A DNA stretch of 64,000 nucleotides from Allochromatium vinosum DSM 180 (lineage in GTDB: Bacteria > Pseudomonadota > Gammaproteobacteria > Chromatiales > Chromatiaceae). Under the pieces are notes generated by a model. It searched no databases. It saw only the letters and a list, made by a program, of their open reading frames with translations, and was not told the origin of the DNA. The translations under genes were made by a program, and so were the position numbers. Shown piece after piece: positions 1,787 to 17,382 of this stretch; position 1 is the stretch's first letter, and every line of letters starts with the position of its first letter. The stretch covers positions 1,589,154-1,653,153 of the forward strand of contig NC_013851.1 of the NCBI RefSeq assembly GCF_000025485.1. The letters are read 5' to 3'.

Positions 1787-2176
1787 TCAATGGTTTGCCG
1801 CTCGGGCCGCCTCTTCGCGTGTGTAGAAGCGATCCTCGTGCACGAAGCCCGAGACGACCTCGGCGACGACCGCCACCACATGGCCGGCGTTGTCACGTGC
1901 CCGCACCCAGGACTCGGGCAGTCCGTCGAGCACATGGATCGGCGCCGGCGTTCCGTCACTGAAGCGCGACAGCACGCACTCGCCACTGCGCCGATTCAGA
2001 TAACCGGGGCGGAAGCCGAGACCGGCATTGTTCCGGCTGACACCAGAGGTATTGGCATAGAGCCGGTTTTCGTGACGCAGCGTCATGTCGTTCAGGACAC
2101 CGCGCATCCGCCGTTCGCGCTCCTGGCGTTCTTGGCCGGCGACCTGTTGTTGGAGACGTTCATCGTGGTCGTTCAT
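1787..2176 (-). CDS. Conserved-looking hypothetical protein, 129 aa
   Basis: The start ATG at 2174-2176 is preceded by a good ribosome-binding site (GGAGG at 2181-2185, five bases from the start). The product is soluble and has no signal peptide. Its first 25 residues are very rich in Gln, Glu and Arg (a likely helix). A central part with GLGFRPGYLNRRSGE and DGTPAPIHVLDGLPESW looks like a conserved domain of unknown function, followed by a hydrophobic patch (HVVAVVAEVVSGFV) and a basic C-terminus. I do not recognise the family. Its context is notable: it begins just downstream of a HEARO-like RNA, where an iscB gene normally sits, although it has no HNH or RuvC features. Confidence 0.65.
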   Translation of the reverse strand: MNDHDERLQQQVAGQERQERERRMRGVLNDMTLRHENRLYANTSGVSRNNAGLGFRPGYLNRRSGECVLSRFSDGTPAPIHVLDGLPESWVRARDNAGHVVAVVAEVVSGFVHEDRFYTREEAARAANH

Positions 2177-2186
2177 CAGTTCCTCC

Positions 2187-2583
2187 GCGAGAAACCCCGT
2201 CTTTCAGGGCGGGGAGGGATAGCGGCTGCGACAGTGCCGCCGCCGAAATGGGTGCAGGCTTTCCACCTGCCGGGCCGCGAGGCTCTGCCCGTAAGGGCCT
2301 GGTGACGGGGCCACGTCTCACGACGTGGCCCGCTCCCCTCGACCATGTTATCCGTGGGTTTTCGCACCCTTTCGGGTCCATCCCTGGAGGCGGCACTGGC
2401 TTCGTACCCCGTAGACCTGTTTAACCGCCTGCCGCAGTGTCCGGGACTGAGGAAGCATCCCGGAGTGCCTATTACACCGACTCGCGTCGGATTCCACGGT
2501 AACGCTGCCCCTCTCGGGGCGTGGTCTGGTCAACGTCGGAGCTTGCTTTCACAAGCTCCCGCCTTCAGGCGGGGGTCGTTGAC
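2187..2583 (-). ncRNA. HEARO-like (IscB-type omega) RNA without an iscB gene
   Basis: Read on the minus strand, the RNA opens with an outer stem GTCAACG/CGTTGAC (2577-2583 with 2529-2535) enclosing two hairpins (CCGCC-loop-GGCGG and GGAGCTTG/CAAGCTCC). It continues into a core (about 2392-2469) closed by GGCACT/AGTGCC (2464-2469 with 2392-2397) and containing CCGGGA/TCCCGG (2458-2463 with 2441-2446). Further stems are an ACCC-GAAA-GGGT tetraloop hairpin (2366-2377), a 9-bp hairpin (2308-2331) and a terminal palindrome (2195-2214) like those at IS200/IS605-type ends. The order of elements and the wording of the core resemble, from memory, the omega RNA of IscB loci such as OgeuIscB. A guide, if present, would be the 16 bases at 2584-2599. 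No IscB is encoded nearby. This stretch also accounts for most of the gene-free 2177-2714 interval. Confidence 0.72.
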
Positions 2584-2714
2584 GGCTCACCTCGATTGGC
2601 GAGTGCGTTCTCTGTGCAAATCAGAAGGCATCGCGCGTGCCAGCCTGTCGGTTTCGTTCGGCGTCGGCTCCAGGCTCGGGGCCGGAAGAGGCTCCTGCGC
2701 CGCGCGATCTCGTA

Positions 2715-3185
2715 TCAGGTTATCGGCAGATCCCGGCGTTCCAAGACCCGTCGGAGGACGAAACTGGAATGCACGCCCGCCACACCTTCCAACCGTGTGA
2801 TCTTGTTCAACAAAAAATCCTGATAGGCCTCCATGTCGCGCACCACGACCTTGAGCTGATAGTCAGCGTCCCGTCCCGTGATGAGCAGGCATTCGAGCAC
2901 TTCCGGCATATCCTTGACGGCGGCGTCGAAGCGCTCGAAGCGCTCGGGCGTGTGGCGGTCCATGGAGATGCTCAGGATCACCATGAGACTCAGGTCGAGT
3001 TTCTTCGCATCGAGTTCGGCGTGATAGCCGGTGATGAATCCGGCTTCTTCCAGCGCGCGAACGCGCCGCAGACAGGGCGAGGGCGAGAGTCCGATGCGTT
3101 CGGCCAGATCTTGGTTGCTGAGGCGTCCGTCGCGTTGCAGTTCGACGAGGATCTGACGGTCGTAGCGGTCGAGTTTCATGTGCAT
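2715..3185 (-). CDS. Lrp/AsnC-family transcriptional regulator
   Basis: 156 residues, the usual family length. The N-terminal winged helix-turn-helix is clear: LDRYDRQILVELQRDGR, then LSNQDLAERIGLSPSPCLRR as the helix-turn-helix. It is followed by the RAM (ACT-like) effector and oligomerisation domain (about residues 70-145) with the typical DYQLKVVVRDMEAYQDFL stretch. A start three residues later (MKLDRYDRQ) is equally possible. The gene diverges from a leucine-pathway gene (leuA) across about 300 bp, so I infer that it controls leuA and itself, probably in response to an amino acid. Ligand and targets are not visible from the sequence. Confidence 0.93.
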   Translation of the reverse strand: MHMKLDRYDRQILVELQRDGRLSNQDLAERIGLSPSPCLRRVRALEEAGFITGYHAELDAKKLDLSLMVILSISMDRHTPERFERFDAAVKDMPEVLECLLITGRDADYQLKVVVRDMEAYQDFLLNKITRLEGVAGVHSSFVLRRVLERRDLPIT

Positions 3186-17286: not shown

Positions 17287-17382
17287 TGGCGGAAGAGAGC
17301 AGGAGTCGAACCTACCAGGGACCGCTTGGCCGCCCCTCCCGGTTTTGAAGACCGGGCGCCCCACCGGGGAACGATCTCTTCC
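17287..17382 (-). tRNA. selC: tRNA-Sec (anticodon TCA)
   Basis: Read on the minus strand, the 96 bases start GGAAGAGATCGTTCCCC and end CTCTTCC-G-CCA, with the CCA encoded (17287-17289). The acceptor stem is GGAAGAG/CTCTTCC, extended as usual for tRNA-Sec. The anticodon loop CTTCAAA (17344-17350) gives anticodon TCA (17346-17348) on a CCCGGT/ACCGGG stem, and there is a long variable arm (AGGGGCGGCCAAGCGGTCCCT). The T arm GGTTCGACTCC is typical. It lies 10 bases after the selB stop and should be co-transcribed with selAB. Confidence 0.96.

Follow-up and report, generated by a model that had tools for sequence, protein, structure and literature searches.

A standalone HEARO/IscB omega RNA element inserted at a conserved gene's start codon in Allochromatium vinosum, and the landing of related elements at translation-start signals

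IscB is the likely ancestor of Cas9, and its external 5' guide makes transcription of the guide after a new insertion a real problem. Integration of HEARO RNAs is said to occur at ATGA/GTGA, and standalone (trans-acting) omega RNAs of IscB systems have reportedly been seen in Ktedonobacter. Non-autonomous elements of the IS200/IS605 group (PATE/MITE type) carry a subterminal hairpin, use a fixed target motif and make no target duplication. OgeuIscB reportedly requires a TAM of the form NNRR and pairing of about 14 TAM-proximal guide nucleotides (PMC9640706). A locus related to these systems was analyzed in the window, by which is meant the whole stretch of 64,000 nt of A. vinosum DNA under study. 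The locus is a real mobile element, consisting of an omega RNA and transposon ends, with neither iscB nor tnpA. Coordinates are collected in Table 1.

Table 1. Features of the element, its insertion site and the AGGA junctions of a second lineage (positions are those of the window)
Feature	Position or locus	Strand	Basis
Whole non-autonomous element, 407 bp	2177..2583	-	Three congeners with the empty site; ends shared by nine copies
Element termini	GTCAAC 5' end at 2583, CTG 3' end at 2177	-	Nine genomic copies
HEARO / IscB omega RNA scaffold	2327..2583	-	RF02033, 124.2 bits; compensatory changes in 9 copies
Terminal hairpin CCCCGCCCTGAAAGACGGGG (minus-strand reading), IS200/IS605 type	2195..2214		Sequence; in all nine copies
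Element-borne Shine-Dalgarno GGAGG, 5 nt from ATG	2182..2186	-	Sequence; 24/30 standalone copies
ATGAA, motif at the insertion point (presumed TAM), also the downstream gene's start codon	2172..2176	-	Empty/occupied junction
Guide ccaatcgaggtgagcc, the host sequence flanking the insertion 5'	2584..2599	-	Adjoins the omega RNA on its 5' side
The host gene's native Shine-Dalgarno, GAGGTGA, now within the guide	2587..2593	-	Precedes ATG in empty sites
Candidate sigma-54-type host promoter TGGCACG-N4-ATGC	2628..2642	-	Conserved upstream of many orthologues
Host gene, 129 aa, conserved in Chromatiaceae	1787..2176	-	Start codon at element junction
AGGA junctions of the second IscB lineage	L323-L326, L333-L336, L313, L321 (G210)		

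The omega RNA was identified with the Rfam covariance model RF02033 (HEARO), which matched 2583-2327 on the minus strand at 124.2 bits (gathering score 83, E 3e-25) and over the entire model (1-211 of 211). No second HEARO copy was found in the window, and no other copy in the A. vinosum genome scored as high; 14 control genomes gave no match. Nine copies sharing this core were aligned, and 18 of the 76 predicted pairs had one or more two-sided compensatory changes. The assignment to the HEARO/IscB type, which a sequence-only reading of this DNA had made, was upheld by both the model and the covariation. The extent given there (2187-2599) was right for the guide at 2584-2599 and wrong for the element and the omega RNA, whose limits are those of Table 1. 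Elsewhere in the window a selenocysteine tRNA was located at 17291-17382 on the minus strand (RF01852, 72.7 bits).

The ends of the element were fixed by comparison of sites. In three congeners the same flank and the same gene were present with no element between them (...CGAGGTGAGCC directly followed by ATGAACGAC...), and because of these empty sites the element is exactly 2177-2583, with no target duplication. Upstream of the insertion point is the native Shine-Dalgarno of the host gene (GAGGTGA), and directly downstream is its start codon (ATGAAC). All nine HEARO copies of the genome begin with GTCAAC and share the 3' end ...CTCCCCG..GAAGGACGGGGTTTCTCGCG...CTG, after which comes ATGAA (ATTGA in one). 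The window element thus has the subterminal hairpin, the fixed target motif and the lack of target duplication by which the IS200/IS605 type is recognized. That the feature is a transposon copy, its exact ends, the identity of the guide with the insertion flank, the junction of its 3' end with a conserved gene's start codon and the putative ribosome-binding site it supplies were all absent from the sequence-only reading. A protein-coding gene in place of the RNA was considered and rejected, being contradicted by the empty sites and the covariation.

The whole genome (3.67 Mb, 3 contigs) was searched for further copies. Nine HEARO copies scored above threshold, five of them followed by an intact iscB and four standalone, the window copy included. 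A search for RRXRR (PF14239), the N-terminal domain of IscB, gave five matches, in open frames of 526-535 codons that each follow closely on a HEARO copy. One resident IscB protein scored 471 bits against NCBIfam guided_IscB (cut-off 175), and the closest relatives of these IscBs were in A. humboldtianum and A. palmeri. Since no RRXRR was found near the window copy by profile search, this copy was filed as a standalone omega RNA and not as a complete IscB locus. As previously read, the window contains no iscB, the nearest lying about 18 kb past its right edge; the description of the RNA as an orphan therefore holds locally, but not for a genome with five intact iscB genes. Guiding in trans by an IscB encoded elsewhere, proposed in the same reading, gains candidates from these five. 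The core subtype of the window omega RNA was seen in only two other genomes, where its copies are standalone or lie at contig ends, and no iscB adjoining it was found in the genomes searched, for each of which few candidates were scored; its compatibility with the five resident IscBs is for that reason something we infer.

Two Y1 transposase genes were detected in the genome. The Y1 tnpA locus L015 (C1 near 2927420) has an end hairpin resembling those of the IscB elements (nhmmer E 1e-9) and is a possible source of mobilization for these elements. A frame near this tnpA was read as TnpB-like. As a separate observation, a putative CRISPR array was noted about 0.6 kb upstream of the iscB-bearing copy C1:756011 (minus strand), measured from its 5' end, on the basis of a repeated translated motif (SSPRARGT / FIPASAGNG) at about 2350-3160 of locus L005.

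No iscB was found for this core subtype, the site is empty in congeners and the genome has no other copy that is both close and full-length, so the window copy could be taken for an inert relic: an IscB element reduced by deletion, immobile or without a functional omega RNA, whose start-codon position persists only through the purging of insertions elsewhere. This is quite unlikely, since the structure is full-length, no HEARO copy in the genome scores higher, relatives show compensatory changes and many standalone copies with conserved ends occur in related genomes. Purging alone would also predict neither the excess at start codons over non-genic ATGA nor the missing antisense neighbors that are described below.

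By the exact empty sites, the 16-nt guide is the native 5' flank of the host. Its position had been read correctly from the outset: it adjoins the omega RNA, and the flank joined to ATGAA restores the empty site, in which the TAM-proximal part of the guide is contiguous with ATGAAC. In the occupied site the guide is followed by GTCAAC and the motif is absent. A match to the guide elsewhere in the genome, for which the sequence-only reading had suggested a search, was not found: the TAM-proximal 13 guide nt plus ATGA gave no match at 0-1 mismatch in the A. vinosum genome. The empty sites of the congeners mismatch the window guide at position 12, so that it would mainly serve the home allele and would probably not cut across species. 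The guide being external to the element, at its 5' side, an RNA that includes it would have to start in host DNA and enter the element in sense. A sigma-54-like motif (YGGCACG-N4-ATGC) was found upstream of many orthologues of the host gene, distant ones included, and may be active as a promoter; a transcript beginning about 12 bases downstream of it would have a leader of about 30 nt containing the guide.

Junctions were surveyed in 146 genomes of the family and in loci from a search for IscB relatives. The 78 distinct 3' junctions were nearly all ATGA. Both ends were available for 65 insertions (30 standalone and 35 iscB-bearing; not fully independent, one orthologous pair, L024/L143, being included), and these had ATGA at the junction almost without exception. 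ATGA sites in 400 kb of the home genome were used as the null. The simple codon model by which sites were scored had been trained on a single genome and was used for other genera as well, so that single gene-start calls are uncertain while the contrasts are large: gene-start-like sites were found at 17/30 standalone (p 9e-7) and 15/35 iscB-bearing insertions (p 2e-4), the null being 132/818 non-genic ATGA. Downstream coding was in sense at 45 insertions and antisense at 0 (null 26% sense, 16% antisense), and upstream coding in sense at 19 and antisense at 1 (null 24% sense, 31% antisense). A Shine-Dalgarno core was present in the native flank of 18/30 standalone and 9/35 iscB-bearing insertions (null 16%). 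Loci of Pseudomonas, Onishia and Burkholderiales had ATGA at frames resembling gene starts.

A transposase that recognizes ATGA/TCAT, a motif common at gene starts, might produce such a pattern by target preference alone. Such a preference would account for the nearly invariant junction, and part of the family insertions do lie off recognizable gene starts (about half of the sites were not classed as such). As a substitute for the borrowing of host promoters, the one step with which it competes, it is unlikely: 32 of the 65 insertions are at start-like sites, which make up just 6.4% of ATGA overall and 16.1% of the non-genic ones, and antisense neighbors are nearly absent, neither of which follows from a preference for ATGA. 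The enrichment at starts could also reflect the removal of harmful insertions by selection, with no requirement for host transcription.

Two further standalone copies in the A. vinosum genome could likewise be matched to empty sites. One of them (L022, C1:1295776-1296171; empty sites in five congeners) lies directly before a membrane-protein gene, which is followed by aprB (NCBIfam match, 228 bits), and at its 3' junction host ATGAG is now ATTGAG, a one-base change. Its neighbors are consistent with sat and aprM, and the element is probably inside the sat-aprMBA sulfur-oxidation operon. The other copy precedes a DUF6489 gene. Some of the downstream proteins in the survey are recognizable, with the domain beginning at residue 1 (DUF6489 and, in another genus, DsrE). 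In that wider set, locus L186, from another genus, has a standalone omega RNA directly before a DsrE/TusD gene with the start codon at the junction. Two Allochromatium species carry a standalone element at the same radical-SAM gene (AmmeMemoRadiSam type; L024 and L143), with slightly diverged guides.

The host gene at the window junction has homologues in 63 of the 146 family genomes, and its start is identical in the empty sites; its product gave no match in Pfam or NCBIfam. Standalone elements have the 3' end GCGGAGGAACTG followed by ATGA, with GGAGG five bases before the ATG in 24/30. The 3' end of iscB-bearing elements is GCGCAAGACTG followed by ATGA, and GGAGG at 5 nt from ATG was found in 0/35. 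In the window GGAGG stands where the element has parted the native Shine-Dalgarno from the start codon, and it would be expected to work as a ribosome-binding site. The element is now the leader of the gene, and the L024/L143 insertions occupy one gene in two species; the omega RNA could accordingly be imagined as an exapted regulator, a 5' leader controlling the downstream gene by folding or by binding IscB. We consider this highly improbable, since the insertion at the 129-aa gene is absent in three congeners, the insertions precede unrelated genes and no sign of regulation was seen. The take-over for another use that had been raised for this RNA is likewise unsupported.

A second lineage was examined in the form of unrelated IscB elements in one metagenome-assembled genome ('Proteobacteria bacterium isolate F1-120-MAGs186'). 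These elements end in ...GGAAATTTT followed by AGGA. A start codon 8-15 bases further on, opening a frame of at least 100 codons, was found at 10/12 detected AGGA junctions (AGGG in one), compared with 17.5% of other AGGA, for which frames of 60 codons or more were counted (p 3e-6); locus L104 is a further AGGA junction without a start codon, with which the count is 10/13. In this lineage the junction is itself the predicted Shine-Dalgarno of the next gene. It is tentatively proposed, at somewhat short of even confidence, that IscB TAMs evolved to coincide with translation-start signals (ATGA in one lineage, AGGA in the other), which would bring each sense insertion, and with it the external guide, under a host promoter, and that standalone copies added a ribosome-binding site by which translation of the host gene is preserved.

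The window locus is probably best explained as a non-autonomous IscB element of the IS200/IS605 type with a host-transcribed guide and an omega RNA that is used in trans. The promoter of the host gene would read through the flank (the guide), the omega RNA and then the gene. The RNA would be bound by IscB made elsewhere in the genome, and the complex would cut only DNA in which the guide sequence is adjacent to an ATGA TAM, i.e., alleles without the insert; after such cutting, repair would copy the element back. Any sense insertion at a translation-start signal would by construction have a host promoter upstream of it or be part of an operon. A target motif that is itself a start signal would give host transcription and leave the host gene translatable.

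If this is true, sense landing on start signals solves the transcription of the guide and helps to explain the choice of TAM. It would also give a simple rule by which natural guides and TAMs can be read off genomes, and would illustrate how a transposon can spare its host gene with a ribosome-binding site of its own. The standalone omega RNA is of an already known kind; the landing logic and the built-in ribosome-binding site look new. A search of the literature other than Weinberg 2009, Altae-Tran 2021 and Kapitonov 2016 turned up no earlier notice of start-codon landing. Of these results, the landing rule most deserves follow-up.

The junction motif of the window element is the same as that of the HEARO integration at ATGA/GTGA reportedly described in Weinberg 2009. 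Both ATGA and AGGA fit the NNRR TAM of OgeuIscB (PMC9640706). The element resembles the HEARO/IscB omega RNAs (RF02033; OMEGA, PMC9640706, PMC9755519) in its full-length structure, its 5' guide of about 16 nt and an NNRR-type motif 3' of the target, and differs from them in having no iscB directly downstream and a core subtype unseen beside iscB in the searched genomes. With the non-autonomous IS200/IS605 elements it shares the hairpin, the fixed motif, the lack of duplication and a presumed mobilization in trans, to which it adds a guide RNA scaffold that looks intact, together with a ribosome-binding site. As with the standalone omega RNAs of Ktedonobacter, copies without iscB occur in a genome that contains iscB; here, however, they form a short MITE-like family that carries a Shine-Dalgarno in its own 3' end and lands on start codons.
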